A DNA stretch of 64,000 nt from Lunularia cruciata. Its lineage: Eukaryota > Streptophyta > Marchantiopsida > Lunulariales > Lunulariaceae. Under the pieces are notes generated by a model that saw only the letters and a program-made list of their open reading frames with translations, made no database searches and was not told the origin of the DNA. The stretch lies in contig OX419759.1 in NCBI GenBank assembly GCA_948567375.1, forward strand, positions 49,690,593-49,754,592, in the 5' to 3' direction. The position numbers were made by a program, and so were the translations under genes. Below are positions 3,119-54,321 of the stretch, piece by piece. Position 1 is the first letter of the stretch, and the number at the start of each line of letters is the position of its first letter.

Positions 3119-3570
3119 TTTCATGCCATTTATAGTGCCACATCTAGATTGCTCAGACAAAGGAATTGTAGTGATAGTAGTTAGAGGTATTTCAGCAATT
3201 TCCCATAGACTACTTTCCGACGGTCAAATTTAGTGTTTGGGGTACTGACTTCACGATGGAGCCCACCATCACTTTGCACCGTTCACACCGTCTAGTGTGC
3301 CATTAGCTGGACCATTAGGGTTTCAAACCTAGCTCAAGTCAAGGGGTATAATTTCAAAGTGCAGCTCCAGAGAGCTCACTTCTTTGATGTTGAGCCTTTG
3401 AGTTCCTGGCTATAGTGGACAGAGGCCGGCGAGTGTCACCTAGATTCTCTTAGCTAGAGTGGGTGTGGCTTGACTATAATCTATGCCCAATTGTTTGCAG
3501 TTTATAGAGTGACAGATCAAGTATTGATCTGAGTTTGAGTTGATTTGAGAATTGTAAACGATCTAATTAC
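3119..3570 (+). repeat. Family B terminal repeat, A part (copy 2)
   Basis: Similar along its length to 28716-29165 and 37886-38344, including the conserved CTCCAGAGAGCTCACTTCT and AGTTCCTGGCTAT blocks. It begins directly at the break in copy 1 and runs straight into the leader, with no B-type segment between, as in the other 5' ends of this family. The first bases have decayed from TGTCAC. Confidence 0.75.
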
Positions 3571-4669
3571 ATTAGAGAAGTGAAGTTAGGGGGAAATTGG
3601 GTGCAAAAACTACAAGTGTTGGTGGTATCTCCAAGTGTAGTGGATCTTTGGTAGCTCAATCAAAGTTCAAGTTTTCCTTGGTGTGCAAAAGCTTGTTGCT
3701 TGATGCAGATTTGGTAGTAAGGTAGACAATGTGCGGAAGCATTGGCTAATTTTTGAGCAAAGAAGGAGCAATTTTCAAGCAATGGTTGTGATTTTGAGCT
3801 CAAGAGGTGAAGGCATGACCAATTTTTTGCAAGTTGTGCTCAAAAAGTAAAATTGAAGGTGGATTTGGGAACCTATTCTCATGAATTTGTCATTTGGAAA
3901 AACTTATTAATTCAATTTGGCTTGAGTGGAGAGTTACTGGAGGACTTTTGCCAGATTTGGAAGAGGTTTGAAGTGGCAAGACAAAAGGCCCCATTTGGCT
4001 GAATTTTGGAGTTTTGAGGCTTCAAAGCATAGGGCTGTGGGCTATGAGAGGCTACAAAGGCCAACAAGCCAGCTTGTTAGTGTGAGACTAGCTAGTTTAG
4101 AGTATATCTTTGTCATTGTTTGGCAAAATCTGCCCATCCTGCTAGATTGTGTGCAACAAGGTTTGACCCCTAGATCTCTTGTTCCTAGACTGGTGCCCTA
4201 GCCAATTGGTCCACCCTCACTTGTTGTCCTAGCGATTGGCCCACTATTATCTATACATTTGTAGCTTTGGCTAAGAGAGGTAGTTTGATCCCATTCTTGG
4301 TGATCTTGGTAGCTTAAGACGTAGATAACAACTTCTCTTATGTCAAATGCCAAATAGTGGCGGAGTCAATCTCGTGTTACTTTATGAGATAGAGGGCTTT
4401 TTTTTAGATTTCCTATGATTGGACACCCTCCATTCTCTGCTTGTGCACCATGTTCGTATGAGGTGCCTTGACTTTTGAGCGTTGGTGCTCTGGTGTGCTC
4501 TTGGTAGTAAGGTTGGAGTGATGACTAATCAAACTACCTTTGTTTCTCTTTGGTGAGGTAGGAAGTGATGACCTATAGACCATGAGAGTGCATGTTGTGA
4601 TGACAAGTTACATGTTACCCTTTTCTCTAGTGTAGTTATCTCAGTTAGAGTTACATTAATGGGTGGTGT

Positions 4670-6400
4670 TTTGTGAGTATTGGCACTTGGTGGTGCTCAG
4701 TTGGTGGTGGCACTTGGTGGGGTACTTGCAGTTGCAATTGTGGTTACTTTGTCATGATAGAGTTCTTTGGGGATTCTAGAGAAGTTTGCCCTTCAATACA
4801 CAATGGGTTTACTCGGAGTGGCGCTTGGTATCAATCTGTATCTCGGGTCCTAGTGAGGGAGGAGATTGGCTCTAAGTTGGAGTTTGACACAGGAGCTAAT
4901 TTAGTTGAGAGTGCACTTGGTGTGTCCACATTGTTCTTGTGGGACATGAACAAGATTTATGGGGCCTCCAAAGGCCTTAAGCATTACTTTGGTATAATGG
5001 GTACCATTGAGTTGGATGACTTCATCTAGGAGTTTGATAGTTGGTGTGATCATCAATAGATGCAAAAATTGATTTTGTTTACACCTTTCATGGCATGGAA
5101 GAGGTTGTTTCAACATTTGGAGGGTCTGCCGATGGATGACTACCATAAGTTTAGGAGAGCTTGTTTGGAGTAGATTGAGTTATGGAGACAATATTGGTCT
5201 CCAAATTATGTCTCCATCACTTTAGGCTTGGTTGCCAGGAGTAGATCGGCCGTACCCACAAGTTCTAGTTCAAGTAGTGTTGGTGGAGCTAGTGGAGGTG
5301 CACTAGTTAGAGATAGTGCTACTACAAGTAGAGGTACCGCCATAGGAGGTGGTGTGGTATTGGGGTTTAAGCCCATGGTGGAGTTCTTCTAGTGTTTGAG
5401 GTAGAACTACCAAGGAGTGCGGATTGACAAGCTGAGGAGCTTGAAGGAGTTCCAGTGAAAGGCTGAACAGAGCCTATGCGAGGCAAACAATCGCATGAGG
5501 CGGTTGATTAGTTTCACTCAGGGAGTTATTGAGGCCCAAGCAGTCCAATTTTAGTATGTGATATTGGATAGGGAGTTATGACGTAGAGTTTGTGATGCTA
5601 CGTTGTTACAAGCTATGCCCACTTTGGTAGTGGTCTTTGGTTTGGCTGAGCGTATTGAGCTCAACATGGTGGAAGAGAGAGTAGTGACATCTGGATTTGG
5701 TAGGGAGACCTCATCCATAATTATAACTTCTTCTAAAGTGCAATAGATTGCACCAAATCTAGTTAGTTTTTGAGGATAGGGTAGATAGCCTAGGTCCGAT
5801 GGAGCGAGTGGAAGGCCTATTGTAGTTAGACCCTTACCTTCATTTTCAGGTCAGTAGCAGCCAATGAGTAGTGGTGTTGCTTGTTGGACTTGTGGTGGAC
5901 CTCACCATAGGAGAAAGTGTACTCAAGGCAGTGCACCTGATACCTCTAGTGCATCATAGCCAAAATAGAGGCAGTGTGAGCATTGCCACAGATTTGGTCA
6001 CACTAGTGACCAGTGCTTTGACCTACACCCGGAGTTATGGAGTGGTAAGGATGCTATGGCAGGTAGTAGAGGAGCTCTAGTTCATGGAGGATGAGGTGGT
6101 AGAGGTGGTGGTAGAGGATCTACACCTAGTTGAGATGCAATACCTACCTTTACTTCTGATATAACTATGGCTACCCGGATTGAGTAGTTGGAGCAGTGAT
6201 TGGCTAGTATGGCCATTGCTCATAGGAGATCAGATTTGGGTGCGGAGGCTTTCACCTCATATGCTAGTGATAGAGATGCTTTGGACTTCATGTGCAGAGT
6301 AGCACAGGTGGATGCATTTGCCATAGTGACTAGGAGTGCATTTGCCATAGTGACTAGGAGTGCATTTCATGCTATAGAGCCTAGAGGAGAATCAATGTAG
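4670..6400 (+). pseudogene. Family B gag (copy 2, broken)
   Basis: Retroviral-type capsid (gag) region. Recognisable blocks include GASKGLKHYFGIMGTIELDD near 4960-5020 and, near the 3' end (about 5878-6030), two CCHC zinc knuckles, CWTCGGPHHRRKC and CEHCHRFGHTSDQC. A Gly/Arg-rich stretch follows the knuckles. The same order is seen in copy 3 at 30400-31950. Zinc knuckles of this kind bind the packaged RNA in LTR elements. The region is broken many times and should be read as a fossil. The assignment rests on the knuckles and on colinearity with copy 3. Confidence 0.75.
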
Positions 6401-6579
6401 TTGGACCCACATAGAGGAGAGGTTGGATGACATGTCAGACTTCCCCAATCTTTCACACTCTCTGAGGCCTTGCAGATAACATCCATGGCTCCTAGACGTC
6501 CCAATGCAAGTGTGGTAGGTGGGGATGGGGTGCATGATGACCTACCTACTAGTCAGCCACCTACTACTACATAGACTGA

Positions 6580-7620
6580 GTTGAGCATGATGTTGGGGGC
6601 GGTTCAGCTGATTATGCATTGCCTTTTGTTTTCAACTAGTGACATGTTTATATTAGGAGTTGACCCAACCTCAATGTTCCGATTGGCTGCCATGCTTTGT
6701 GAGAGTAGAGATGATGTTGTTTCTACTACTAGAGCAAAGGTGGATGATAGTAGAGCTGACTTGGTTGAGGAGCATGGGATCCGTTCAACGACCAATGGCT
6801 TATGGCAGGCAACAACAGCTAGATTGGAGGAGTTGCCAGCTAGACTGGCCTTTGAACAAGCACGGTTTATACCTAATGTTGTCCTATTGGATAACCAGAT
6901 GAGAATTTTCTATTTGGTGGGACCTTCAAGAAAGGGCTATACACCACAAAGAGTCTTATTAGACTCTACTGCGCAACCCCTTATGTTGGGGAAGGTTGCA
7001 GTTGTCAATCTAGGGTTACAAAAGACCAATATGGAGAGGTGTCCATTTCAGATCCAAACATCTCTAGGTGGTGGTTTGACACAATACATCACATGTGTAG
7101 TTGTTAGTAGTTGTTTAGATTCAGCCTGGTCATTTGACTAATAGCTTGGTGATGAGAGCTCAGGCTATTGCGACAATAGCTGAGTCATAGAATGTGCTAG
7201 TTGGGGGAGTAGTGTTTACCCCATGGGTTTTGATATTGACTATTGGGAGGAGATAGCCTCCTATAGACCAAGTTGGCAGTATGGTGAGGTACGGATATGT
7301 CGCCTACTAGTATGCTTCAGTAGTGGCAATCTTGGCTCACTACAGTCCGAGACCATGGCAACATCAGTTTCAGCTTTCAATGGTGTAGTCACTTGGCCTG
7401 GTGACTTGTTGGAGGGGAATGCCAATGTAGAGGATACTCCAATACCAGAGGAGATCAATTGGATTTGGAGTACAAGCGGGATTGTTCCATCCACCTTGGA
7501 TCTTCCATTGTGGAGTTTAGAGGAGGCATGTAGCAACATGTAGATTGGTTGGTGCAACAGGCTTGGAGTGGAGCCTTTGTACCACCAGGAGATGAGTGTG
7601 AGGATGAGCCTTAAGAGTCA
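6580..7620 (+). pseudogene. Family B protease region (copy 2, broken)
   Basis: Colinear with 32100-33200 of copy 3. It contains the block VLLDSTAQPLMLGKVAVV (about 6950-7010), which sits where a retropepsin active-site loop is expected, followed by a DVLVGG-like block near the end of the fold. About 200 codons of unassigned sequence precede the putative active site and are shared by both copies. Decayed, with several breaks. Protease identity is moderately secure because of its position between the zinc knuckles and downstream enzymes. Confidence 0.6.
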
Positions 7621-7665
7621 ATTACCTTGACACTTCTGGATACCATACTCATTGCTTGGTAGTAT

Positions 7666-8600
7666 CCAATAGAGGGAGTATGTCTTTTAGAGTTGTTTGG
7701 TGGGATTAGCACTGGACTAGTTGCGGTACTACAGGCAAGTCTATGAGTACAGAGGTGCTTGTATGTGGAGAGAGATGAGATTGCTAGGTTAGTCTCTCTA
7801 CATCATATGGCACCCTTGGCCTATCGGTATCCTGAGTTATTACTAATGTCAGCAGTCAGGGGCTACTAGAAGGCCCTACCAATAGACATTTCCTTACTAG
7901 GGATGCATGATTTGAAGCGACATGGGCCCATTCACTTGGTGATTTCTGGATGGCCATGTTAGGGACATACACGTGCTGGCAGAGGTTTGGGTCTTCAGGA
8001 TCTCTATTCTGGTGTGTTTTGGGAGATTTTACAAATACTACAACATCTCCGGGTTCATCAGTTCATTTCTCTATCTTACATTTTAGAGAATGTTCTTTTG
8101 ATGGGTGATTCTCGCACCAGAGTGGTGATGAGTACACATTAGGTCCATTCTTGGATGGGACCTGCTGTATTGTTAGATGCAACCAGAGTAGGATCATGGG
8201 CTCATTGTCTTTGTCTTTGGTGGACAAACCTCTTACCCAGAGAGGTTTTACAATGTGCCTATGATAGTATTCAACAACCAACACACCTTCTTGTTGATGA
8301 TATTCAAGATGTTGGGCTCCAGTCTCGAGTGGTAAGAATGACTGATAGGTCTTTTGTGATAGTGTTTAACCTTGTAGTGCAACCCATAGCCACTTTACCT
8401 ACACTTATGAGTTTCCTAACTTCCCTTGCTTATCAAAAGAGAAGTCCTAGACTTGTTTGGGATTCATAGTTATATTTAATTGATGGAGCCTAGTGCCAAT
8501 GAGAGAGAGAGAAAGTAATGTATTTTGATATCAATATCACCATTATTTAAATAGTGTTAGAGGCATCCAAGCATCAAGTGTTAGGTCAAGCTATGGATGT
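7666..8600 (+). pseudogene. DNMT3-like DNA methyltransferase domain (copy 2, broken)
   Basis: Second, older copy of the cytosine-5 DNA methyltransferase domain. Motif I (AdoMet binding) appears as LELFGGISTGLVAV near 7685. Motif IV with the catalytic Pro-Cys appears as VISGWPC near 7942-7962. Motif VI appears as LENVLLMGDSRTRV near 8085-8130, with the canonical Glu-Asn-Val. The later block LCLWWTNLLPREVL (about 8210-8250) matches the place of the HRARYFWGNLPG block of DNMT3 enzymes. Motif order is I, IV, VI, then the late motifs, as in DNMT3 and not permuted as in plant DRM. The domain lies between protease and reverse transcriptase, as in copy 3. Broken and old. Its presence in two copies of different age shows that the domain belonged to the family. 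Confidence 0.8.
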
Positions 8601-9149
8601 GAATTTTTTGACCTAGATTATAAGCCTTGGATTGGCTAAGCAATGTAGGATGTGCTTGACAAGCATCACCACTCGAACACTTGTGAGCTTTGTGCTTATC
8701 AAGACAATTTGGGCACATGTTGGAGTGACAAGCCAAGTGGGCATGGCATTCTTGGTACACAACCAGTGACTACTAATGAGAGTTGCCTACTTGAGGTACA
8801 TCTAGGTGAACAAAGTCTACTTGGGATACATGCTTGGTCTACTTGGGACACAACTAGAAGACATGTGGAGCTTGCGATAGAAGGAGTTTGCTTTGAGATT
8901 GTAGACTTTAGCAATTGGAGGCATGAAAATATTGCTCCCATGGTCTTGGTTTGGTAACTAGCCAATATATCTTTCATCTATATAGCAATTATAGATAATA
9001 CTTGGGATCAAAATATTAGACCCAAGCTTAGAGTTTGGAGGTTCTTGAGGAGCTACATGAGTTGTTTTGCCTTCAAAAGGATTTGGGTGCTATAAAAGGA
9101 CAAGATATTTAGATTGAGCTAACAAGTGATACACCAATATTTTGATGTC

Positions 9150-9484
9150 CCTACAAATATAGTGACATGGAAGGAGTCTTGATTTAGTGCAAGATTCAAG
9201 ACCTTTTTGAGATTGGTTTGCTAGAGATCTCACATGGAGTGTATGCTTCAACTATAATGATTCCAACTAGGAAAGATATACATGTCAACTATAAAAATAA
9301 GCAGATGTGTTAAGATTAATATATTATCACACAATAGACTAGAGCTGATTAGTATGCTATGCCTATACTAAAGAAGATCTTTAATGCAATTGTGCATACC
9401 AACGTCCAAAGTACTATGAATCTTCAAGAAATATATCATGAATTGCATTTTGGGCTATTGATCCTCATGGAAAGGATATATTAG
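9150..9484 (+). pseudogene. Family B reverse transcriptase, first part (copy 2)
   Basis: Colinear with 34680-35080 of copy 3: the N-terminal fingers region of a Ty3/gypsy reverse transcriptase, ending near the block AIDPHGKD. The similarity fades after about 9484 where a large insert begins. Strongly decayed. Confidence 0.65.
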
Positions 9485-27325: not shown

Positions 27326-28017
27326 TGTAACACCAATTTGTGCATGTGTGTGGTATTGTGATATTTAGCTTGGTATTACAAGTAATTGAGAGATATTATT
27401 TATATAGAGATAAAGGATGGTTCTACATTAATCATGATTAGCTAAAGTTAGTCATAGCTAAGATAGAGGAGACCTTACTTAAGAAGGGAGTGAAAAAGAT
27501 GAGCACCACTATTTTGGATTCTAGTGTGTTGACTTGGTATTATTCCTAGGTGTTTGGCTTTGATGAAATAGTTGAGAACTCTTGGGCCCGCAAGCCTTTT
27601 TGTTTTGGATTCTTCTCTAGTCCAAGGATAGCCCACATGAAGGAATCCTTGACTTAGTGGTTGGGTCAAGATAAGATCACATGCTAGTGGAATATGCCCA
27701 TGTGAATGGATATTCCTTTCTACTTTTTGACTTTACTTGACTTTTAGCCTAGTAACTTGAGTTACTCCAGTAATTAGTAACTTTGGTGCATAACTATTTC
27801 ACAAGTATATAAACAAGGGGTGAGGAAGTACTCATCATCCTTTCATTTGCAACTATCTCTCTCTCATTGAGTTCTCTAGTGAGCAATGTCTTGAGTCTTG
27901 GAGTGTTAGCCTTGGAGGAGTATGATGGAGTTGGGGTTCCTTTCCTTCTTAGTCCATGGTGCGTTACCATAATAGCCATCAGAGGTTCATCTTGAGTGAG
28001 AGACAAGCCGGCTCACA
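27326..28017 (+). mobile_element. Family A LTR (left LTR of a nearly emptied element)
   Basis: A 692-bp copy of the family A LTR, TGTAACACC to GGCTCACA, inserted in B copy 2. It is close in sequence to the young LTRs at 47208 and 54331. Directly after it come 31 bp (28018-28048) matching the last bases before the 3' LTR of the whole A element, then another LTR. Almost the entire internal region is therefore missing. Confidence 0.85.
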
Positions 28018-28710: not shown

Positions 28711-28715
28711 AGAGA
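28711..28715 (+). repeat. Target-site duplication of family B copy 3 (left)
   Basis: AGAGA lies just before TGTCAC and recurs after the right end at 38446-38450. Removing the insert restores a family A LTR end of the usual length. If the element ends in CA at 38446, the duplication is GAGA (4 bp). Confidence 0.75.
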
Positions 28716-29165
28716 TGTCACGCCATTTGTAGTTCCGCATCTAGCTGCTCGGACATTGGAGTTCCAGTGATAGTAGTTAGAGTTATTCTAGTAGTTTCTC
28801 AGGGACTACTTTCCAACAGTCTGATTTGGTGTTCGGGGTATTGACTTCACGGTGGGACCCACCGTCACTTTGCACCGTTCGCACCGTCAAGTGTGCCGTC
28901 AGCGGGACCATTAGGGTTCCAGTGCTTGCTCGAGTCCAAGGGGGTATGGTTTCAAAGTGAGCTCCAGAGAGCTCACTTCTCTGATGTTGAGCCTTCGAGT
29001 TCCTGGCTATGGTGGACAGAGGCCAGTGAGCGTCACCTGGATTCTCTATGCTTGAGTGGGTGTGGCTTGACTGTAATCAGTGCCTAGTTGTTGGCAGTTT
29101 ATAGAGTGACAGATCAAGTACTGATCTGAGTTGAGTTGAGTTGAAAGTGTTAAGCAATCTGATTA
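28716..29165 (+). repeat. Family B terminal repeat segment A1
   Basis: About 450 bp, about 95% identical by eye to 37886-38344 apart from a 9-bp length difference. Similarity stops at GATTA (29161-29165). The sequence then continues into the leader (ACATCAGAGAAG), as in copies at 3119 and 55472, with no B-type segment. ATCAGAG just after the junction resembles part of an initiator-Met primer site, but weakly. A segment of about 45 bp containing ATCAGAGAAGTGAAGTC is duplicated in tandem at about 29166-29250 in this copy only. Confidence 0.85.
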
Positions 29166-30400: not shown

Positions 30401-31960
30401 ATGAGTGGGTGGTGTCTAGTTGGTGTTGGTATTTTCTCCTCTGAGTTGGAGTTCGACACAAGAGCTGATTCAGTTGAGAGTGCACTTGGTGTGTACGCAC
30501 CGTTGTTGTGGGACATGGACAAGATTTATGGGGCCTCCAAAGGCCCTAGGCGTTACTCTGGTATAGTGGGTACCATTGAGTTGGATGACTTCATCCAGGA
30601 GTTTGATAGTTGGTGTGATCTGCAGCAGATGCAGAACCCGACTTTGTTCACACCCTTCATGGCATGGAAGGGGTTGTTTCAGCATCTGGAGGGTCCGCCG
30701 ATGGATGACTACCATGAGTTCAGGAGAGCTCATTTGGAGGAGATTGAGTTATGGAGATAGTATTGGTCTCCACACTACGTCTCCATTACTTCAGGCTTGG
30801 TGGCCAGGAGTAGATCGGTTGTACCCACGAGTTCTAGCTCGAGTAGTGTTGGTGGAGCTAGTGGAGGTGCACTAGCTGGAGATAGTGCTACTACAAGTGG
30901 AGGTACCGCTGCAGGAGGTGGTGTGGTACCGGGGTTTAACCCCATGGTTGAGTTCTTCCTATGTTTGAGGCAGAACTACCAAGGAGTGCGGATTGACAAG
31001 CTGAGGAGCTTGCAGGAGTTCTAGTGGAAGGCAAGAGAGAGCCTACGCGAGGCATACACTCGCATGAGGCGGCTGATCAGTTTCACTCAGGGAGTTACTG
31101 AGGCCCAGGCAGTCCAGTTTTGGTATGGGATACTGGACAGGGAGTTGCGACGTAGAGTTCGTGATGCTACGTTGTTGCAGGCTACTTCGCCCACTTTGGC
31201 AGTAGTCTTTGGTTTGGCTGAGCGTATTGAGCTCAACATGGTGGAGGAGAGAGTGGTGACATCTGAATTTGGTAGAGAGACCTCATCCACGGTTGTGACT
31301 TCTTCTAGAGTGCAGCAGAGTGCACCACGCCCAGTTGGTTTTTGAGGACATGGTGGACAACCCAAATCCTATGGAGCGAGTGGAGGGCCTAGTGGAGTTA
31401 GACCCTTACCCTCATTTTTGGGTCAGCAGTAGCCAATGAGTGGTGGTGTTGCTTGTTGGACTTGTGGTGGACCTCACCATAGGAGAGAGTGTACTCAGGG
31501 CAGCGGACCTGATACCTCTGGTGCATCACAGCCAGCACAGAGGCAGTGTGAGCACTGCCACAGATTTGGTCACACTAGTGATCGGTGTTTCGACCTACAC
31601 CCGGAGTTACAGAGTGGTAGGGCTGCTATGGCAGGTAGTAGAGGAGCTCCAGTTCATGGAGGACGAGGTGGTAAAGGTGGTGGTAGAGGATCTACACCTA
31701 GTAGGGGTGCAGTACCTGCCCTTACTTCTGACATAGCTATGGCTACTCGGATTGAGCAGTTGGAGCAAAGATTGGCTAGTATGGCTATTGCTCAAAGGAG
31801 ATCAGATTTGGGTGCTGAGGCTTCCACCTCATATGCTGGTGATAGAGATGCTTTGGACTTCATGTGCGGAGCAGCACAGGTGGATGCATCTACAGCAGTG
31901 ACTAGGAGTGTAGTACGTGCTCCAGAGCCTAGAGGAGCATCAATGGAGTTGGACCCATAG
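30400..31960 (+). pseudogene. Family B gag with two zinc knuckles (copy 3, broken)
   Basis: Capsid/nucleocapsid region. The first part has gag-like blocks (ALGVYAPLLWDMDKIYGASK near 30480-30540, then FTPFMAWKGLFQHLEG near 30645-30690). Two CCHC zinc knuckles follow: CWTCGGPHHRREC at 31454-31492 and CEHCHRFGHTSDRC at 31547-31588, then a Gly/Arg-rich run (about 31650-31710) and an acidic, Ser/Thr-rich tail. In LTR elements this protein forms the virus-like particle and binds the genomic RNA. Copy 2 shows the same order. Broken. Confidence 0.8.
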
Positions 31961-31999
31961 AGAGGAGAGGTTGGGAGACAGGTCAGACTTCCCTAGTCT

Positions 32000-33200
32000 T
32001 TCATGCTATCTGAGGCATTACGGACGACATCCATGGTTCCTAGACATCCCAGTGCAGGTGTGGTAGGTGGTGATGGAGTACCTGCTAGTCAACCACTTGC
32101 TACTACACAGACTGAGTCTAGCATGATGTTGGGGGCGGCTCAGCTGATTATGCGGCATCCTTTATTTTCAACCAATGACATGTTTACATTGGGAGTTAAC
32201 CCAGCCCCAGTATTCCCGTTGGCTGCCACGTTGTGTGAGAGTAAGGATGGTGCAGTTCCTACTACTAGAGCAGAGGTGGTTGGTAGTGGAGCTGACTTGG
32301 TTGAGGAGCATGGGATCTATTCAGCGACCAATGGTTTATGGCAGGCAGCAGCGGCTAGACTGGAGGAGTTGCCAGCTAGACGGGCCTTTGAGAGAGCGCG
32401 GTTTACACTTGGTGTTGTCCTATTGGATAACCAGAGGGGGATCTTTCATTTGGTGGGACCTTCAGGGAAGGTCTATACACCACAGAGAGTCTTGTTAGAC
32501 TTTGGTGCGCAACCCCTTATGTTGGGGAAGGCTGCAGTTGTTGATCTGGAGTTACGGAAGACCGATGAGGAGAAGTGTCCATTTCAGATCCAGACATCTC
32601 TTGGTGGTGGTTTGACACAGTACATCACACGTGGGGAGCTTGTTGTCCAGGTTCAGCCTGGTCATCCGACTGATAGCTCGGTGGTGAGAGCTTAGGCTAT
32701 TGCAACGATAGCTGAGTCATATGATGTGCTAGTTGGGGGAGAAGTGTTATACCCTATGGGTTTCAGCATTGACTATTGGGAGGAGACAACCTCTTATAGA
32801 CCTGGTTGGCAGTCTGGTGAGGGATGGGTATGTCGCCTACCAGTACGCTTCAGTAGTGGCAGTCTTGGCTCACTACAGTCCGAGACCATGGCAGCATCAG
32901 TTTTGGCTTTCAGCGGTGCAGTTACTTGGCCTAGTGACTTGTTGGAGGGGAACGCCCATGCAGAGGATACTCCAGTACAAGAGGAGATCACTCGGCTTTG
33001 GAGTACGAGTGGGATTGTTCCATCCACCTTGGATGTTCCATTGTGGAGTTCAGAGGAGGCATTGCAGCAGCATGCAGATCAGTTGGTGCAATAGGCTTGG
33101 AGTGGAGCCTTTGTACCATCAGGGGATGAATGTGAGGATGAGCCTCCAGAGGTGATTTCTTTGACACCTCTAGATACCACACTCATTGCTTAGTAGTATC
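32000..33200 (+). pseudogene. Family B protease and flanking unassigned region (copy 3, broken)
   Basis: The block VLLDFGAQPLMLGKAAVV near 32490-32550 fits a retropepsin active-site loop, with Asp followed by Phe-Gly-Ala where Ser/Thr-Gly-Ala is usual. DVLVGGEVLYPMGF near 32725-32770 fits the second half of the fold (the family usually shows a DVLLG-like string). About 150 codons before the active site and about 130 after it, up to the methyltransferase, match no domain I recognise, yet both are shared with copy 2. Retropepsins cleave the polyprotein. The identification is moderate; the order around it is secure. Confidence 0.6.
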
Positions 33201-33205
33201 CAGTA

Positions 33206-34160
33206 GAGGAGATATGTCTATTGGAGTTGTTTGGTGGGATCAGCAACGGACTAGCTGAGGTGTTACAAGCGGGTATACGAGTACAGAGGTACTTGTATGT
33301 AGAGAGAGATGAGACTGCTAGGCGAGTCTCTCTACATCATGTGGCACACTTGACTTATTGGTATCCGGAGTTATTACCGATGTCAGCAGTTAGAGGTTAC
33401 CAAAAGGCCTTACCAGGAGACATTTCCTTATTGGGGGCTCATGACCTAGAGAGACATGGGCCTATTCACTTGGTGATTTCTGGATGGCCATGTTAGGGAC
33501 ATACACGTGCGGGCCGTGGTTTGGGTCTTCAGGATCCTCGTTCTGGTGTGTTTTGGGAGATGTTACGGATACTACGACATCTCCAGGTTCATCAGTCTGT
33601 TTCTCCAGCTTAGCTTTTGGAGAGCGTTCCTTTGATGGGTGATTCTCACACTAGAGTGGTGGCGAGTACACATCAGGTCCATTCTTGGATGGGACTTGCT
33701 GTATTGTTAGATGCAGCCAAAGTGGGATCACGGACCCATTGTCTTCGTCTTTGGTGGACGAACCTCTTACCCAAAGAGGTTCTACAGCATAGTTATGATG
33801 GGATTCAGCAACTAGACCACATTCTTGTTGATGATATCTTGGATGCTGGACGTCAGTCTTAGACAGTGGTAGTGGCTGATAGGTCACCTATGGCAGTGGT
33901 GAACCTAGTTGGACAGCCTAGAGCTGCATTTCCCACACTCATGAGTTTCCCAGGCTCTCATGCTTTTTGAGAGGGAGGACCTGGACTTGTTTGGGACTCA
34001 CAGTTATAGCAGTTGGTGGAGCCCAATGCTCATGAGAGAGAGCGGGCGATGGGTTTTTGCACCGGTATTACCACTGTTCCAGCAATGTCAGAGGCATCTA
34101 GGTGTCAGGTGTTAGGTCAAGCTATGGACCTAAACTGTTTGACCTGGATTGTGAACCTTG
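33206..34160 (+). pseudogene. DNMT3-like cytosine-5 DNA methyltransferase domain (copy 3, broken)
   Basis: Enzymes of this fold transfer a methyl group from AdoMet to carbon 5 of cytosine in DNA. Visible motifs, in order: I, LELFGGISNGLAEV at about 33221; IV, HLVISGWPC with the catalytic Pro-Cys at about 33470-33495; VI, LESVPLMGDSHTRVV at about 33615-33660; the HRARYFWGNLPG-equivalent block RLWWTNLLPKEVL at about 33745-33785; and a motif X-like pair, ERERAMGF (about 34034-34057) and CQVLGQAMDLN (about 34103-34135). The length of about 320 codons fits a catalytic domain. Motif order is linear as in DNMT3/DNMT1; plant DRM has the halves swapped. The MGDSHTRV and WWTNL blocks align best with DNMT3. 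It sits between protease and reverse transcriptase. Broken. Confidence 0.85.
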
Positions 34161-34164
34161 GCCT

Positions 34165-34600
34165 GGCAGAGCAGCGTAGGATGTGCTTGATAGGCATCAC
34201 CACTCGGCCACTTGTGAGCCCTGTGCTTATTGAGATGATTCAGGCACATGCTGGGGGCGATGGACCAAGTGGACATGGTATTCTTGGGACACATCTAGTA
34301 GCTACTAGGGAGAGTGGTCTTCTTGGAGTCCATCCAGGTGAGCGTGGGCTACTTGGATTACACTCTTGGTCCACATGGGATGCAGCTAGAGGACGTGTGG
34401 AGCTTGCAGCCAGAGTGGAGGGAGTTTTTTGCACAGAGGTTGGGACCTCTAGTGGTCGGGAGCATGACACTATTGCTCCCAAGGGCCCAGTGTAGCAGCC
34501 AGTTAGTACATCTTCCACTCCTACTACAGTTACAGAGGATACTTGGGAGCCAGATCTTGGACCCAAGCTTACTGGAGAGGAAAGACTAAGGGTTTGGAGG
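34165..34600 (+). other. Linker between methyltransferase and reverse transcriptase
   Basis: About 145 codons shared with copy 2 (8600-9010), for example GLLGLHSWSTWDAARGRVEL near 34345-34405. I recognise no domain. It may be the C-terminal tail of the methyltransferase part or a spacer before reverse transcriptase. Confidence 0.35.
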
Positions 34601-35580
34601 TTCTTGAGGAGTCACACGAGTTGTTTTGCCTTCAGTATGAAGGATTTGGGTGCTCTGAAGGGACCTAGTATACGGATTGAGCTGACTAGCAATACACCAG
34701 TTTTCCGACGTCCTTATTGATATTGTGATATGGAGAGGACATTGATTCAAAGCCGGAGTAGTGACCTTTTTGAGGCTGGTTTGGTGGAGATTTCACATGG
34801 AGAGTATGCATCAGCGACAGTGATGCCAGCCAAGAAGGATATGCATGGCAACTATACAGATAGGCGGATGTGTGGAGATTACTGTCCTATCAACCGACAG
34901 ACCAGGGCTGATTGGTATGCCATGCCTACACCGGAGGAGATTTTTGATGCGATTGGGCATGCAAAGGTCTTCAATACTTTGGATCTTTGAGCAGGATATC
35001 ATCAGTTGCCGATCGGGAAAGAGGATAAGTCCAAGACAACATTTTGGGCTATTGATCCTCACGGCAAGGATGTGTTATATCAGTGGAGGTTCTTACCATT
35101 TGGGTTGAAGAACGCTCCCGCTGAGTTCCAGAGGGTCATGGATAGGATCCTAGCTGGATTGTATTTTGCTCGGTGCTATATTGATGACATTTTGGTTTAT
35201 AGCACTACTGTGGAGGAGCATGAGAGACAATTGTTGGAGGTGTTTGAGAGGTTGAGATCTCATGGACTCAAATTACATCCTGGGAAGTGTAGGTTCTTCC
35301 ACGAGCAGGTTGAGTATTTGGGTCACACTATCTATCTCGGAGGACTTGGTGTCCAACAGACCAAGGTGGAGGCTATTGCATGTATTCCTCGGCCTACGGA
35401 TGTGAGCAGAGTGCGAGCATTCCTTGGGTTGGCAAACTTCTATCGCCGCTATGTTAGAGGATTTAGTGCCATTGCCAAGGCCTTGACAAAGCTGACCAAG
35501 CTAACACAGGAGTGGTGTTGGGGAGATGAGCAGGAGAGAGCTTTTGTAGAGCTCAAGGAGAGGTTGACATCTGCTCCTAT
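34600..35580 (+). pseudogene. Family B reverse transcriptase (copy 3, broken)
   Basis: Ty3/gypsy reverse transcriptase. Landmarks: SDLFEAGLVEISHGEYAS (fingers, about 34757-34810), RRMCGDYCPINRQTRADWY (about 34863-34918), VFNTLDL with the first catalytic Asp (about 34967-34987), FLPFGLKNAPAEFQRVMD (about 35090-35145), YIDDILVYS with the catalytic pair (about 35177-35203) and FLGLANFYRRYVRGF (about 35420-35465). The RRMCGDY and MPTPEEIFDAIG wording differs from ordinary plant chromoviruses (usually RxCVDYRALN), so this is likely a separate lineage. Broken. Confidence 0.85.
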
Positions 35581-36010
35581 TTTGAGGAGACCGATTAGGG
35601 GACGACCATTTCAGGTTCACATTGATTAGAGTATGTTGGGGCTTGGAGCGGTGCTCACCCAGCATGATGATGAGGAGAAGGAGTTTGTGGTGGCCTATGC
35701 TAGTCGCTCCAACAATTCAGCGGAGGCAAAGTATAGTTCATATGAGGGAGAGTGCTTGGCAGCAGTTTGGGCAGTAGTACATTTCCGATGTTACCTATTT
35801 GGTAACCCCTTCACTCTCATCACTGATCATCAGCCGCTGAAGTGGTTGATGGAGTCCGACAAGCTTTCAGGGAAGCTTGCACGATGGGCTCTGATTTTAC
35901 AGGAGTATGATTTCACAGTTGTTCACAGACCTAGAGTGGTGAACCGTGATGCAGATGGGTTGAGTAGAAACCCATGTCCCAGCCAGCAGGATCAGACCGG
36001 AGCACGTTGG
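35580..36010 (+). pseudogene. Family B RNase H (copy 3)
   Basis: Follows reverse transcriptase directly. FVVAYASRSNNSAEAKYSSY (about 35681-35740), YEGECLAAVWAV with the catalytic Glu, LITDHQPLKWLM with a catalytic Asp (about 35816-35850) and NRDADGLSRNP with the last Asp (about 35942-35975) are the usual retroelement RNase H landmarks. It removes the RNA strand during reverse transcription. Confidence 0.85.
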
Positions 36011-36339
36011 CTTGGTGAGACAGATGAGGAGATGGTGCCAGGTTGGCATGCATCGGCCTTTCTGTGTATATTTGCAGAGACTTTGGTGGTATCTCTCTCA
36101 GTGCATACAGGAGGAGTTATTGAGGTCACAGATCCAGAGAGTGAAGATATTGGTACAGTTCAGCGAGACATTCATGATGATGTCTTAGTGATGGACTATC
36201 TTTGCACTAGTATTGTGGGTGGCACAGTTGGGGCCAAGGAGAGAGACCGTGTTCTTCAGCGAGCCAGACGGTTCAGATTGAAGGGTAGACACCTTTTGCG
36301 TGTATGGGAGGATGGTAGAGTGCAAGTAGTACCACTTCC

Positions 36340-37210
36340 ATCACAGAGACCACAGTTGGTCCGTCATGCTCATGAGGAGCTAGGACATTTTGGAGTAAAG
36401 CGTACATATAGCTTACTTCAGAGTCATTATTGGTGGCGCGGTATGCAGACCAAGGTGCAGCAGTTTGTTGCTAGATGCGTGGTTTGTGACCGAGTTAGAG
36501 CATCATTCAATGCTCCTACGCCACAGTTACACCCATTACCTATCATGGGATTGGGTTACCGTTGGAGTTTGGACTTCACCGGACCTTTACCGCTGACTGT
36601 GAGTCATCATCGATATGTTTTGGTGATGGTGGAGCACTTCTCCAAGTGGATTGAGTTGGTGGCACTTCCTGACAAGTCTAGTGAAGGGACAGCTTACTCG
36701 TTCATGGATCGAGTTCTTAGTCATTTTGGTGCACCAGCTGAGGTTTTGACTGATTAGAGTATAGAGTTCTTGGGAGAGTTTCAAGTCTTGTGTGACAAGG
36801 CTTTGATTGATCATCGTACTACATCCTGAGATCACCCTGAGGCAGATGGCTTAGCAAAGAGAGTGGTTCAAACGGTGAAGAGAGGATTGTGAAAGTATGG
36901 TTTGCAGAGAGGCCACTTGGGAGATTGGGATCTCCAGTTACCTTGGTTGGCCATGGGCTATCGGTTCAGCCGGCAAGCCTCCTTAGCATCCTTCTCTCCA
37001 TACTTTCTACTCTATGGACGAGATCCAGATTTACCTGCAGCCATTCGTCGAGATGCTACTGTAGTTTTGGACTTGGATGACCCTGATGTATGGATGAGCA
37101 CATGTTCTCAGTGGGCAGAGATCTTTCGGAGAGTGATGCTGATGGCCTTTGAGAACTTGGCGATTGCTCAACATAGAGATACTTTACGCTATGCTACCAT
37201 TTGAGGAGGA
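36340..37210 (+). pseudogene. Family B DDE integrase (copy 3, broken)
   Basis: The zinc-binding HHCC domain is visible: H and H in HAHEELGHFGVKR (about 36366-36405) and CVVC at about 36479-36490. The catalytic core starts with WSLDFTGPLP, holding the first Asp (about 36563-36595), followed by FSKWIELVALPDKS. The second Asp region (about 36750) and the Glu region follow in the expected order. A block resembling the core end (SPYFLLYGRDPDL) is at about 36990-37030. This is a DDE-type integrase, so the element is not a tyrosine-recombinase (DIRS) element even though its repeats are split. Broken. Confidence 0.8.
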
Positions 37211-37276: not shown

Positions 37277-37609
37277 ATGACACTTGATGTTTCTACAGGC
37301 CGCACTTTCTTGAGAGTGCGCAAGGTTTTGCCATCTGGAGTCCTTGTCTTAGAAGGACGTGATGGTGTTGTTTGGAAGGATCATGTGCGCAATTGTGCGC
37401 CATGCCACCTCCCAAACATTGATGGTACTATGGACCCAAGCTTGGCACTTGTACGTGCAGGCTTGAGGTGTATGTTATGTGGTTCTTCTGGTGGAGCTGC
37501 TACTATGTTAGTGTGTGATAGCTGTTCGAGAGGATGGCATATGGCATGTATGACTCCTCCCCTCATGGTGGTTCCTCAGGGACAGTGGTTGTGTCCTAGG
37601 TGTACTTGA
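37277..37609 (+). pseudogene. Integrase tail with C-terminal PHD finger
   Basis: The last coding part of copy 3. After a beta-rich stretch (LRVRKVLPSGVLVLEGRDG) comes a complete C4HC3 PHD finger at 37469-37603. The eight zinc ligands are all present: CMLC, CDSC, the His and Cys of GWHMAC, and CPRC, with the usual Trp two residues before the last pair (WLCPRC) and the RGWH turn. PHD fingers read the histone H3 tail, often its Lys4 state. In chromoviruses a chromodomain occupies this position after integrase and steers insertion, so a targeting role is the natural inference. The region ends with a stop and about 160 bp of non-coding DNA before the polypurine-like tract. Confidence 0.85.
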
Positions 37610-37767: not shown

Positions 37768-37777
37768 AGGGGGGCGA
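37768..37777 (+). promoter_or_regulatory. Polypurine-like tract before repeat B1
   Basis: AGGGGGGCGA lies just before the ATTGTGGCAC start of segment B1, the position of a plus-strand primer in an LTR element. It suggests that the 3' repeat begins with B1 rather than with A2. Confidence 0.5.
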
Positions 37778-37885
37778 TTGTGGCACTTTAGAGTCTATGT
37801 ATGACTTATGTGTGAGTTGTGCTTCTATAGTGTATGATGTTGACAGCAATGTATGTTGTGTAGCGATGTATATACGCATGACAAC
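37777..37885 (+). repeat. Family B repeat segment B1
   Basis: About 109 bp, ATTGTGGCACTTTAGAGTC to GACAAC, nearly identical to 38345-38446. It stands immediately left of A2 and has no counterpart at the 5' end of the element. Confidence 0.85.
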
Positions 37886-38344
37886 TGTCACACCATTTGT
37901 AGTTCCGCATCTAGCTGCTCGGACACTGGAGTTCCAGTGATAGTAGTTAGAGTTATTCTAGTAGTTTCTTAGGGACTACTTTCTGACAGTCTGATTTGGT
38001 GTTTGGGGTACTGACTTCACGGTGGGGCCCACCGTCACTTTGCACCGTTTGCACCATTCGCACCATCGAGTGTGCCGTCAGCGGGATCATTAGGGTTCCA
38101 GTGCTAGCTCGAGTCTAGGGGGGTATAGTTTCAAAGTGAGCTCCAGAGAGCTCACTTCTCTGATGTTGAGCCTTCGAGTTCCTGGCTATGGTGGACAGAG
38201 GCCGGCAAGCGTCACCTGGATTCTCTATGCTTGAGTGGGTGTGGCTTGACTGTAATCAGTGCCCTGTTGTTGGCAGTTTATAGAGCGACAGATCAAGTAC
38301 TGATCTGAGTTGAGTTGAGTTGAAAGTGTTAAGCAATCTCATTA
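37886..38344 (+). repeat. Family B repeat segment A2
   Basis: 459 bp, starts TGTCACACC, about 5% divergent from A1 (28716-29165). It ends at CATTA, where segment B2 begins. Confidence 0.85.
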
Positions 38345-38446
38345 ATTGTGGCACTTTAGAGTCTATGTATGACTTATGTGTGAGTTGTGCTTCTATAGTG
38401 TATGATGTTGACAGCGATGTATGTAGCGATGTATATACACACAACA
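38345..38446 (+). repeat. Family B repeat segment B2 and right end
   Basis: About 102 bp repeat of B1, ending CACACAACA. The target duplication AGAGA/GAGA follows (38446-38450), then the remaining 14 bp of the interrupted family A LTR. Confidence 0.85.
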
Positions 38447-38450
38447 GAGA

Positions 38451-40652: not shown

Positions 40653-41343
40653 TATGAGCCGGCCTGTCTCTAACTCAGGATGAACCTCTAATGGCTATTA
40701 TGGTAGCGCACCATGGACTAAGAAGGCAAGGAACTCCAACTCCATCATACTCCTCCAAGGCTAACACTCCAAGACTCAAGACATTGCTCACTAGAGAACT
40801 CAATGAGAGAGAGATAGTTGCAAATGAAAGGATGATGAGTACCTCCTCACCCCTTGTTTATATACTTGTGAAATAGTTATGCACCAAAGTTACTAATTAC
40901 CATAGTTACTCAAGTAACTAGACTAAAGGTCAAGTAAAGTCAAAAAGTAGAAAGGAATATCCATTCACATGGGCATATTCCCCTAAGCATGTGATCTTAT
41001 CTTGACCCAACCACTAAGTCAAGGATTCCTTCATGTGGGCTATCCTTGGACTAGAGAAGAATCTAAAACAAAAAGGCTTGCGGGCACAAGAGTTCTCAAC
41101 TCTTTCCTCAAAGCCAAACACCTAGGAATAATACCAAGTCAACACACTAGAATCCAAAATAATGGTGCTCATCTTTTCCACTTCCTCTAAAGTAAGGTCC
41201 CCTCTATCTTAGCTATGACTAACTTTAGCTTATCATGACTAATGTAAAACCATCCTTTATCTCTATATAAATAATATCTCTCAAGTACTTGTAATACCAA
41301 GCTAAATATCACAATACCACACACATGCACAAATAGGTGTTAT
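40653..41343 (-). mobile_element. Family A solo LTR, minus strand
   Basis: A 691-bp family A LTR in reverse orientation, with GGGTC directly repeated on both sides (40648-40652 and 41344-41348), a clean 5-bp target duplication. No internal region or partner LTR is present, so it is a solo LTR. End bases have drifted from TG...CA. Moderately old. Confidence 0.88.
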
Positions 41344-45089: not shown

Positions 45090-46330
45090 TTTGGTGTGAT
45101 AAATTTTCTTTTCTCTTTTATTAGTTGTAAGGAACAATGATTTATGATAATATGTCTTGGGTGTGGTTTTGCTATCTTGTTTTGGGAGAAAGTGAGGAGA
45201 CAGAAAAGGGTTGAGGGTTTTCAGAAAATGCCAAAAGATTTTGAGATGGAAGTTCGCAAAAGATTTTGAGAGTGAAGTTTGCAGAGGATTTCGAGAGAAG
45301 TAGCCAAGATTTTTGGAAGAAGAAAGGAGTAGGGTTTTTTTGGACAGGAGAAAGGTTGGACATAAAGTTTTTGAGTTGTACAGGAAGAAGGTGGGACAGA
45401 AAGTTTCGAGTTGGACAGGAGGAAGGGGACAAAAAAAAATTTTGAGTTGGACAGGAGGGGTTTTGGGCAGGAGGAGAAATTCTCAAGAAGATGGAAGGTT
45501 GGACAGAGGAACATACACAGGAGAAATTTTTGAGTTGGACAGGAAGGGCTTGAGAGTGCAAGGGAGAGAAAGGTTTCTTCTTGAAGGAATGAACAAATGT
45601 GCAGGAGAGGAAGTGCTTGGACAGAAGGGCAATTTTTGCAGGTAATGTTAGGGCTTGAGAGTGCAGGGGAGAGAAAGGTTTCTTCTTGAAGGAATGAACA
45701 AATGTGCAGGAGAGGAAGTGCTTGGACAGAAGGGCAATTTTCGCAGGACAAGAAGGGCTTGAGAGTGCAAGGGAGAGAGAGGTTTCTTCTTGAAGGAATG
45801 AACAAATGTGCAGGAGAGGAAGTGCTTGGACAGAAGGGCAATTTTTGCAGGACAAGAAGGGCTTGAGAGTGCAGGGGAGAGAGAGGTTTCTTCTTGAAGG
45901 AATGAACAAATGTGCAGGAGAGGAAGTGCTTGGACAGAAGGGCAAATTTTCGCAGGTAATGTTAGGGCTTGAGAGTGCAGGGGAGAGAAAGGTTTCTTCT
46001 TGAAGGAATGAACAAATGTGCAGGAGAGGAAGTGCTTGGACAGAAGGGCAATTTTCGCAGGTCTGAAGGGCAGGCTGCAAGAGTAGCAAAAGAAACTCTC
46101 ACGAAGGTGAGAACAGGATTGAGGAAGAGAGATTTCAGTGTGAAAATGTTGATAGAGTGTTGAGGGACAGAATTGGAGAGGAATTTTCGCAAGTCTGAAG
46201 GGGATTTGCTGCAGAAGTTGCCAAAGGATAATCTCCCGAAGGTGAGGATAGGAGTGAAGAAGAAAGATATATATTTTTTTGGGAAGATGTTGTGAAGAGT
46301 GACTGAACAGGCAGTGATAGGAGCTAGTCA
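45090..46330 (+). repeat. Tandem arrays: five units of about 105 bp and a 120-bp pair
   Basis: Units starting GCTTGAGAGTGCA at 45548, 45653, 45757, 45861 and 45967 have periods 104-106 bp and are nearly identical, so the array (to about 46068) is recent. Each holds GGTTTCTTCTTGAAGGAATG and GCTTGGACAGAAGGGCAA. Upstream (45340-45540) shorter GAGTTGGACAGGA repeats occur; downstream a unit of about 120 bp (GTCTGAAGGG...CCGAAGGTGAG) appears twice (about 46058 and 46190). Long open frames on the minus strand arise because the period is near a multiple of three. Confidence 0.85.
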
Positions 46331-46339
46331 GGAAGAAAA

Positions 46340-46800
46340 GGAGGAGAATTTCAAGGTGGCTGAGCTCATCTGGAACAAAGGCAAGAAAGATTTGAAGTTG
46401 GTTGGCCTGTCTGAATGGAGTGAATCTGATATGCAAAACAGGGCATAGGAGAATGAAGAGGTTCGGAGGGTGAATTGCCTTGCCTGCTGTCGGACAGAAT
46501 ATATGTGAACTGCCGGCTGAGTTGATGATCAGTTGCAACCTTAGGGCAGGCATTGTCTTGACTAGAACTATTTGACTTATCCAACCTTGTGAACGTTGTT
46601 GTTGAAACTCATGTGAATGATGAATCTTGGAAGCGGATTGTGTTATGAATTGTGACTAGAGTTGAGGAAAACTCCATTCTAGGAACTCTCAGTCCGGTCC
46701 ATGTGAATAGCCTAAGTAAATGATCTGGATGCCTGGGTTTATGTTTGGTTAGATCACTAAGTTGTTGTTTCTTTTATTTTATTAAAGGGCCACCTGACCT
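46340..46800. other. No feature recognised
   Basis: Between the tandem arrays and the next gag-like fragment. Short frames only; no motif recognised. Confidence 0.3.
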
Positions 46801-47207: not shown

Positions 47208-47886
47208 TGTAACACCCATTTGTGCATGTGTGTGGTATTGTGATATTTAGCTTGGTATTACAAGTACTTAAGAGATATTATTTATATAGAGATAAAGGAT
47301 GGTTCTATATTAGTCATGGTTAGCTAAAGTTAGTCATAGCTAAGATAGATGGGACCTTACTTTAGAGGAAGTAGAAAAGATGAGCACCACTATTTTGGAT
47401 TTTAGTGTGTTGACTTGGTATTATTCCTAGGTGTTTGGCTTTGGGGAAAGAGTTGAGAACTCTTGGGCCCGCAAGCCTTTTTGTTTTGGATTCTTCTTTA
47501 GTCCAAGGATAGCCCATGTGAAGGAATCCTTGCTTTAGTGGTTGGGTCAAGATAAGGGGAATATGCCCATGTGAATGGATATTCCTTTCTACTTTTTGAC
47601 TTTACTTGACTTTTAGTCTAGTAACTTGAGTTACTACGGTAATTAGTAACTTTGGTACGTAACTATTTCACAAGTATATAAACAAGGGGTGAGGAGGTAC
47701 TCATCATCCTTTCATTTGCAACTATCTCTCTCTCATTGAGTTCTCTAGTGAGCAATGTCTTGAGTCTTGGAGTGTTAGCCTTGGAGGAGTATGATGGAGT
47801 TGGGGTTCCTTGCCTTCTTAGTCCATGGTGCGCTACCATAATAGCCATCAGAGGTTCATCCTGAGTGAGAGACAGGCCGGCTCACA
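47208..47886 (+). repeat. 5' LTR of the whole family A element
   Basis: 679 bp, TGTAACACCC to GGCTCACA. Same length as the 3' LTR, with two mismatches. Short antisense open frames of 61-62 codons recur in every copy of this LTR and are not genes. Confidence 0.95.
47675..47682 (+). promoter_or_regulatory. TATA box of family A LTR
   Basis: TATATAAA lies about 467 bp into the LTR, and the same box recurs at the matching place in the other LTR copies. Transcription would be expected to start about 30 bp downstream, near the TCATCATCCTTTC stretch, so the R-U5 part would be about 180 bp. The start site itself is inference. Confidence 0.65.
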
Positions 47887-47890
47887 TTTT

Positions 47891-47908
47891 TGGTTCCGTT
47901 GTCGGGAC
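47891..47908 (+). promoter_or_regulatory. Primer-binding site, tRNA-Asp-like
   Basis: TGGTTCCGTTGTCGGGAC lies 4 bp after the LTR and matches the complement of the plant tRNA-Asp 3' end (TGGCGCCGTTGCCGGGG) at most positions. Corresponding sites are at 59840 and 63056 in other copies. Athila-type elements are known to use tRNA-Asp. Confidence 0.7.
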
Positions 47909-47927
47909 CTCTCTAGAAGGCAAGATA

Positions 47928-48098
47928 ATGTTCCGCGTCCAATTCTACATTAGGCAGAAGGAGGCTATGAGAACTCACTTGGAGAGAACATTAGGAGAGG
48001 AGAGAGCTGAACTTATGTTAGAGAACCAAGATCTATTTGTATACCCTGTAGTTCATTATGATGTCTTTGAGGTGATTTTGTACATCTTGTACACATGA
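47928..48098 (+). CDS. Small conserved leader ORF (56 aa), unknown function
   Basis: It begins 19 bp after the primer site with MFRVQFYIRQKEAM and ends ...FEVILYILYT. The same frame is kept in the copy at 63093-63263 and, more decayed, near 59876. Related wording appears after the primer sites of family C copies (REQMRVSLVSHFG near 43805; TSHFGQDF near 56605), so this is an old shared module. The predicted peptide is charged at the N-terminal half and hydrophobic at the end (VILYILY). It could be a true N-terminal protein, a regulatory upstream ORF, or a relic of an earlier gag start. No function is known to me. Confidence 0.4.
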   Translation: MFRVQFYIRQKEAMRTHLERTLGEERAELMLENQDLFVYPVVHYDVFEVILYILYT

Positions 48099-48746
48099 GA
48101 GGAATTGGAGAGATTGTGTGAGGTGGATTGCAGATTTTGGGGATTAAGGTGATTTTGGGCAAAATCTCAAGTTTGAGATCTGGACTTGAGATTTCTACAC
48201 ATGATAGCTTGGGTTATCTTTCAGTTATCACACTTGAAATTATTGAGAGAGCTTCTATGCGCACTGGGCTAGAATTTTTGAAAGTTGATAGGGTAAAGTG
48301 CTCCCGCAACTGCATGCTCTCTGGAAAATTGTACAGAGTCTGCCATTTCTTCAATTTTTAGTGAATTGTCCTGAAAATTTCCAAGAAAATTCAGTGCATT
48401 GTATCCTACCTGGTACCTAAAAAATTAGAGAGAGATCATTTTTGCGCAGTGCGTTATGAGCTTTTGAAGTGAGGGGGGTGGTTTTCAGACCAAATCTGAA
48501 ATATGGGTGCTGAATAGAAAGCTGTCTAGGCCAAATGGCTTCATGAAAAGATCTTAAATTTTGCAGGGAGGGACGCCCTAGAGTTGTGATCAAGTGTGGA
48601 AAATTTCAGAGGACTGTGACATATTCGTTGGGAGATTTGAGTGACATTGTGAGGAAGGGTCAATTCTGCAGAGTGGAGATCTCATGCATGAGAAGTTTGA
48701 GATCAACAAAAAGCATGTTTGAGTGTTTAGATTCATCTTTGGGAAC

Positions 48747-54282: not shown

Positions 54283-54321
54283 AGAGACCTTCACTTTGAG
54301 GACAAAGTGAAAACTTAGTCC

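Follow-up and report, generated by a model that had tools for sequence, protein, structure and literature searches.

A decayed Ty3/gypsy-type retrotransposon with a DNMT3-type methyltransferase domain in the liverwort Lunularia cruciata

Introduction

DNA methylation is a means by which plants silence transposons, so a successful transposon that itself encodes a de novo methyltransferase raises the question of whether being methylated pays. Retroelements of this kind have been described by de Mendoza et al. 2018 (PMC5890265), among them KnitGypsy-Dnmt3 of Klebsormidium nitens, which combines Gypsy domains with a DIRS repeat structure (Figure 4 legend). As reported there, KnitGypsy-Dnmt3 has a Ka/Ks below 0.2, and the retro-DNMT3s form a clade that has diverged further than the host gene, which has several exons. 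The K. nitens elements are said to be fewer than those in Symbiodinium, whose SymbioDIRS-Dnmt3 enzymes methylate CG in yeast, and the A-coding-B-A-B repeat layout is called typical of DIRS (PMC5890265). Here we describe a DNMT3-bearing element in a 64,000-nucleotide window (the whole stretch of DNA analysed; contig OX419759.1, positions 49,690,593 to 49,754,592, forward strand) of the Lunularia cruciata genome, which is reported to be large through Ty3/Gypsy bursts (PMC9985172).

The window copy is a decayed, dead member of an abundant retrotransposon family. Our best overall explanation, to which we give a probability of about 0.5, joins this to a model in which the enzyme of intact copies would methylate the element's own complementary DNA (cDNA).

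Results

The methyltransferase domain

A reading of the window from its letters alone (the original prediction) had placed a DNMT3-like cytosine-5 DNA methyltransferase (DNMT) domain at 33206-34160, between the protease and reverse transcriptase of a Ty3/gypsy retrotransposon. The motifs it quoted all lie there in one frame and in the order given (33197-34147): YPVEEICLLELFGG at 33197, VISGWPC at 33473, LLESVPLMGDS at 33614, RLWWTNL at 33746 and GQAMDLNCLTW at 34115. The location was thus right, and alignment to genomic copy L011 gives a slightly greater span, 33197-34204. The motif order is I-IV-VI-VIII-X and, unlike that of DRM, is not rearranged. The profile search that had been proposed as a check gave a divided result. 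Six stop-free pieces from the two window domains, which contain five and eight in-frame stops, retrieved no methylase match in Pfam, and when read through with X at the stops the two copies scored 21.8 bits (E 1.4e-4) and 16.8 bits against DNA_methylase (PF00145), both below the cut-off of 22. In contrast, the open-frame genomic copy L005 scored 32.8 bits. Solved DNMT3A structures in the PDB were matched both by L005 (E 1.1e-11) and by the first window copy with X at the stops (E 2.7e-8), the DNMT3A fold is also present in a relative with 73% identity (P0002), and a protein search returned 70 proteins at E<=1e-3.

That the motifs might be chance words is contradicted by the genome (565,766,749 bases in 74 contigs), in which the motif IV pattern has 1,612 exact matches (796 forward, 816 reverse), a lower bound for the number of domain copies, and the reversed pattern, searched as a control, has none on either strand. 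Twenty genomic stretches were hand-picked out of 150 scored places and, with the window copy, make up the 21 compared below; being hand-picked, the sample is biased to well-kept copies. A 45-row alignment shows the catalytic Cys, Glu and Arg of this enzyme class; all 21 copies retain the Cys and the Glu, and the first Arg of motif VIII is missing from 10. Since the motifs stand in frame and the open copy matches both Pfam and PDB entries, the original prediction had seen a real domain and named its class correctly. From these comparisons we regard the identity of the domain as near certain: a cytosine-5 methyltransferase of DNMT3 type, carried by a land-plant retrotransposon of Ty3/gypsy type.

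Element structure and termini

The domains follow one another in the same frame as Gag-protease-DNMT-UAG-reverse transcriptase-RNase H-integrase-PHD (Table 1). Reverse transcriptase, RNase H and DDE integrase stand in gypsy order, which places the element with Ty3/gypsy (Metaviridae-type). The integrase core (rve), which falls just short of its cut-off in the window copy, scores 50.4 bits in L011. Neither the Gag piece at 31433-31960 nor the protease piece at 31997-32695 has a Pfam match; Gag and the protease were assigned through motif and relatives, the protease also through its position.

Table 1. Features of the element and of a second family copy in the window
Feature	Position	Strand	Basis or remark
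Target-site duplication GAGA, left	28712..28715	+	4 bp
Terminal repeat A1	28716..29165	+	~450 bp; left end TGTCAC
Gag, at least to 31590	30515..31590	+	Start MDKIYGASKG; interrupted by stops; motif and relatives
Two Gag CCHC knuckles	31454-31492 and 31547-31588	+	Read by eye
Retropepsin-like protease region	32369..32911	+	Around VLLDFGAQ (32489); motif and position
DNMT3-type cytosine-5 methyltransferase domain	33197..34204	+	Extent from alignment to L011; 5 in-frame stops
Conserved UAG (TAG CAG CCA)	34493..34495	+	Divides Gag-protease-DNMT from reverse transcriptase-integrase, same frame
Reverse transcriptase, piece	34991..35629	+	RVT_1, 90.3 bits
RNase H, integrase zinc-binding, start of integrase core	35630..36757	+	rve 32.4 bits, just below cut-off 32.6
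C-terminal PHD finger	37460..37606	+	47.4 bits, cut-off 24
Shared terminal stop of second open frame	37607..37609	+	Copy comparison
Purine-rich tract, polypurine-like	37769..37777	+	Directly before B1; by eye
Terminal repeat B1	37778..37883	+	~107 bp
Terminal repeat A2	37886..38344	+	93.2% identical to A1
Terminal repeat B2	38346..38446	+	Right end of element
Target-site duplication GAGA, right	38447..38450	+	4 bp
Second, more decayed family copy	3121..9446	+	A repeat 3121-3569; DNMT ~7663-8670, 8 stops, 81% identical to L011

The element is laid out as A1-coding-B1-2 bp-A2-B2. Perfect 4-bp target duplications, read by eye, lie outside A1 and B2 in all eight copies with both flanks, and the element ends are therefore TGTC...GACA. 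B1 and B2 were both detected in 14 of the 21 stretches, and B is absent to the left of A1 in each of the five copies with at least 90 bp of left flank. At readable B1-A2 junctions the two element ends lie opposite one another with 2 bp between them (GACA-2 bp-TGTC). A plain pair of long terminal repeats (LTRs) was dropped as a model once this layout and the missing left-hand B had been found. The idea that the dinucleotide between B1 and A2 is a trace of the flank was likewise dropped; it is mostly GC, with other dinucleotides in the minority. Because A alone stands at the left and B-A-B at the right, instead of an equal LTR at both ends, we class it among elements that have Gypsy domains and split repeats, and not among canonical LTR elements. 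Nor is it a DIRS element, as it has a DDE integrase core and a 4-bp target-site duplication instead of a tyrosine recombinase. Elsewhere in the window, a repeat at 55472-55917 is ~77% identical to A1 and may be an old relative or a solo repeat.

The conserved UAG

For the stop that follows the DNMT domain, 22 sequences were compared (the 20 genomic stretches and both window copies). In all 20 that span the site, TAG is present and the next codon is CAG; the downstream context fits CAR-YYA in 18 of them. In the other compared segments, no codon save the shared terminal stop carries a stop in more than five copies. The Marchantia proteins P0003 and P0004 likewise terminate shortly after the DNMT domain, and the environmental relatives P0045, P0063 and P0070 have DNMT and reverse transcriptase in a single frame. 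CAR-YYA after UAG is what we take to be a readthrough context of the tobacco mosaic type, and from this motif we infer that the UAG may be leaky.

Copy age and selection

Open frames of at least 1,400 residues were found at 5 of the 150 scored places, which were themselves drawn from 8,117 first-look candidates. Divergence between A1 and A2, comparable in 13 of the 21 stretches, runs from K 0.007 to 0.053, with the window copy at 0.051. Measured against L011 (16-20 copies for each domain), the ratio of nonsynonymous to synonymous change (dN/dS) is 0.25 for Gag, 0.28 for protease, 0.26 for reverse transcriptase-RNase H, 0.36 for integrase and 0.40 for DNMT. The all-pairs medians are 0.33, 0.35, 0.30, 0.50 and 0.40, respectively. 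Neutral simulation, with a substitution spectrum taken from the non-coding leader and L011 treated as the unchanged state (an approximation), gave mean dN/dS values of 0.68-0.81 and reached the observed value in none of 200 runs for any domain. In the leader, C-to-T type changes against L011 are most frequent at CG sites (11.8%), less so at CHG (6.4%) and rare at CHH (1.0%; 20 copies). Decay of this kind is what methylated CG and CHG sites would be expected to leave behind, and it does not identify the writing enzyme.

Relatives and origin of the domain

Protein searches returned 70 and 35 proteins, 87 of them distinct, from Marchantia, Calypogeia and Sphagnum, one from Monoraphidium and many from environmental samples. 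Against Marchantia, the DNMT domain is conserved like reverse transcriptase and better than Gag and protease. Five environmental retroelement proteins (P0050, P0063, P0071, P0074 and P0078) carry DNMT, reverse transcriptase, integrase and PHD in one frame of up to 2,461 residues, so the pairing of writer and reader also exists outside liverworts.

Row extraction kept 68 of the 87 retroelement proteins and 61 of 120 DNMT3-type proteins (the 120 listed out of 755 matches). The first tree used 79 of 131 rows and the second 53, and both were flagged for long branches and letter make-up. Viral contigs supplied 54 loci that reach no more than 48% identity, and this over short stretches; we presume that they are C5 methylases of phages or bacteria. 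Of 396 open frames of at least 230 residues in viral contigs, 51 match the retroelement profile and one passed the coverage filter to serve as outgroup. In the second tree the 20 retroelement rows form one clade (100/100), as do 16 plant DNMT3 rows (100/100) and 7 animal DNMT3 rows (100/100). The phylogeny is clear on the unity of the retroelement enzymes and less so on their placement: they come out as sister to animal DNMT3 at 83/86, on a branch of 1.78, with a single viral-contig outgroup row and long branches flagged.

The Lunularia genome has a DNMT3 gene of its own at L083 (G000:C7:31.99 Mb), recognised by eye and by protein search and read by eye as having at least two exons. Among the matches listed it is closest to Marchantia MpDNMT3b (65%), the M. 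paleacea protein (64%) and that of Riccia fluitans (63%); the Calypogeia protein reaches 55%. It places among liverwort DNMT3s in both trees. Host plant DNMT3s (MpDNMT3a/b, Physcomitrium and the Lunularia gene) share enzyme class and motif order with the retroelement domain, but form a separate clade, and the plant DNMT3 proteins heading the match list also carry PF11926. The count of five Marchantia methyltransferases in PMC5784723 does not include DNMT3, whereas protein records name MpDNMT3a and b. A DRM-like host gene with rearranged motif order, read by eye, lies at L086 (G000:C6:13.14 Mb).

Capture from a liverwort host DNMT3 was considered and set aside. Constraining the retroelement and liverwort host DNMT3s together was rejected (approximately unbiased test, AU p 0.024), with the caveat that the group was named after the trees had been inspected and that long branches are in play; constraining the retroelement enzymes with all plant DNMT3s was not rejected (p 0.193). 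The first result makes it less likely that a land-plant family captured the domain recently. DNMT distances follow those of reverse transcriptase (Mantel r 0.89, 16 sequences, none of 2,000 permutations as high) and of integrase (r 0.75, 17 sequences), and the correlation with reverse transcriptase is what a single capture followed by inheritance would predict. The original prediction had supposed that this land-plant family acquired the enzyme. That part is not supported, given that the domain is common to moss, other liverwort and environmental elements, that its distances track reverse transcriptase, and that the clade with liverwort DNMT3 is rejected. As possible roles the prediction had offered methylation of the element's own copies, shelter in heterochromatin and blunting of host detection; the PHD finger, the UAG and the split repeats are absent from it.

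Other repeats in the window

A second Ty3/gypsy-type element lies at 47208-55009, with an open frame of 1,611 aa at 49447-54282 in which no DNMT was noticed. Its terminal repeats, at 47208-47886 and at 54331-55009, differ from each other at 2 of 679 positions (99.7% identity), and together with the open frame they point to a recent insertion. Further terminal repeat copies of that second family lie at 27326-28015, 40655-41342, 59145-59833 and 62366-63049; one of the six copies is on the minus strand. At 45172-46655 on the minus strand, overlapping open frames in several frames share a repeated unit (SCTFVHSFKKK..., SSPAHLFIPSRRN...), and the region looks like a minisatellite-type tandem array.

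Discussion

Proposed role of the enzyme

The most likely role for the enzyme would be methylation of the element's own cDNA. If the UAG is leaky, the methyltransferase would be produced at the level of Gag and packaged, and reverse transcriptase-integrase would be made at a lower level. Within the particle the enzyme would methylate the new double-stranded cDNA, chiefly at CG, so that it would reach the nucleus already carrying the host's own mark. That mark may shield the cDNA from recognition or direct it into tolerated silent chromatin, and the PHD finger of the integrase may help in site choice. The A-coding-B-A-B repeats would point to a DNA intermediate that is circular or contains a junction, and the DDE integrase could open it at a B1-A2-like junction. 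We place this chain of leaky UAG, packaged enzyme, cDNA marking and junction opening a little short of an even chance. A wider picture, which we regard as rather doubtful, would make these elements an ancient, vertically kept plant and algal lineage with a DNMT3 writer and a putative PHD reader, dosed by a leaky UAG, using a Gypsy integrase with DIRS-type split repeats by way of a circle, methylating its cDNA as a passport, and having helped to enlarge a liverwort genome.

Several observations weigh against cDNA methylation as the enzyme's role. The domain contains a stop in 15 of the 21 copies, and the first Arg of motif VIII is lost in 10 of 21, the window copy among them. Its dN/dS is the highest of the five domains against L011 (0.40 versus 0.25-0.36) and second only to integrase in the all-pairs comparison, and distant relatives keep it less well than reverse transcriptase (36.8% versus 57.7% in P0063; 43.6% versus 53.0% in P0045). 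The proposed readthrough is deduced from a sequence motif, and the partial Marchantia gene model P0007 fuses DNMT with reverse transcriptase. The host alone could cause the CG and CHG decay of the copies. Finally, the K. nitens Gypsy enzyme was inactive in yeast, a result that its authors call inconclusive because human DNMT3B failed too (PMC5890265).

Among other explanations, the element might methylate its own new insertions, so that instant silencing limits damage to the host and the family persists. The changes concentrated at CG and CHG, as if these sites were methylated, and the presence of old and young copies side by side would fit such self-restraint, and a possibility akin to it is raised in PMC5890265. 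However, the host's own DNMT3 and DRM-like genes could do the same, and self-silencing would presumably cost transcripts, yet the motif IV pattern abounds in the genome; we consider this unlikely. Less likely again is that the enzyme acts as a counter-defence, methylating host DNA or competing with host DNMTs and so disturbing silencing. Its inferred production at the Gag level would suit that purpose, and SymbioDIRS enzymes act on yeast genomic DNA when given a nuclear signal, but K. nitens has such elements and its methylome nevertheless resembles those of land plants (PMC5890265).

An RNA target (the element's own genome or a tRNA), or a structural, non-catalytic part in Gag, has a slimmer chance still. 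RNA is discussed for a LINE enzyme in PMC5890265 and the motif VIII Arg varies among Lunularia copies, but the top sequence and fold matches are DNMT3 enzymes, the PDB search brings up a tRNA methylase no better than at E 1.3, and the catalytic Cys and Glu are invariant among the copies compared. We consider refuted the notion of a chance likeness, or of a dead passenger acquired once by a few copies: both window copies are dead, but the abundance of motif matches, the relatives in other liverworts, moss and environmental contigs, and dN/dS below the neutral null all contradict it. Methylation of the element's own cDNA stays our preferred role for the enzyme.

On that reading, the silencing mark of plants may also be written by a transposon family itself. 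The open-frame copies found here and the relatives in Marchantia polymorpha make the question of whether being methylated pays directly testable in a land plant, and mutants of M. polymorpha can be made. Methylomes of this species are published (PMC5784723). The union of a Gypsy-type integrase with DIRS-like ends raises the further question of how the cDNA is completed and opened.

Comparison with known systems

Chromoviruses and other plant Ty3/gypsy elements have Gag, protease, reverse transcriptase, RNase H and integrase in the order seen here. To our knowledge they carry no DNMT, have a chromodomain or nothing where the PHD finger sits, and end in plain LTR pairs. An orchid Ty3/gypsy element with an m6A demethylase domain (PMC9289625) is likewise a plant gypsy element with a captured epigenetic enzyme, but the enzyme is a different one and the title of that work terms the acquisition recent. 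Troyka elements, as described in PMC12440569, differ in having a 3-bp target-site duplication and CG..CG ends. SymbioDIRS-Dnmt3 of Symbiodinium resembles the Lunularia element in placing a DNMT3-like domain in a retroelement with A-coding-B-A-B repeats; however, it has a tyrosine recombinase in place of a DDE integrase and belongs to another retroelement class (PMC5890265).

We found no description of a DNMT-bearing retrotransposon in a land plant in the open-access literature searched, which is a weak negative. As far as that literature shows, the land-plant occurrence, the UAG, the presence of a PHD finger beside DNMT, and split ends for which the target duplications are proof are new. The combination of DNMT3 with a Gypsy element and DIRS-like repeats is already known. 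KnitGypsy-Dnmt3, compared by description and not by sequence, has an unrearranged DNMT3 in a Gypsy polyprotein with DIRS-like repeats, as here, and no protein named K. nitens is among the protein matches listed. Its DNMT is placed within the Pol ORF by its authors, whereas that of Lunularia closes the Gag-protease frame before the conserved UAG, and PHD, which the Lunularia element carries, goes unmentioned in the main text of their paper (PMC5890265). Nevertheless, set against the text and figure legend of that paper, the Lunularia element shows the Gypsy domains, the DNMT3 and the DIRS-like repeats of the KnitGypsy-Dnmt3 group, and since KnitGypsy-Dnmt3 already unites all three, it is a land-plant variant of that kind.
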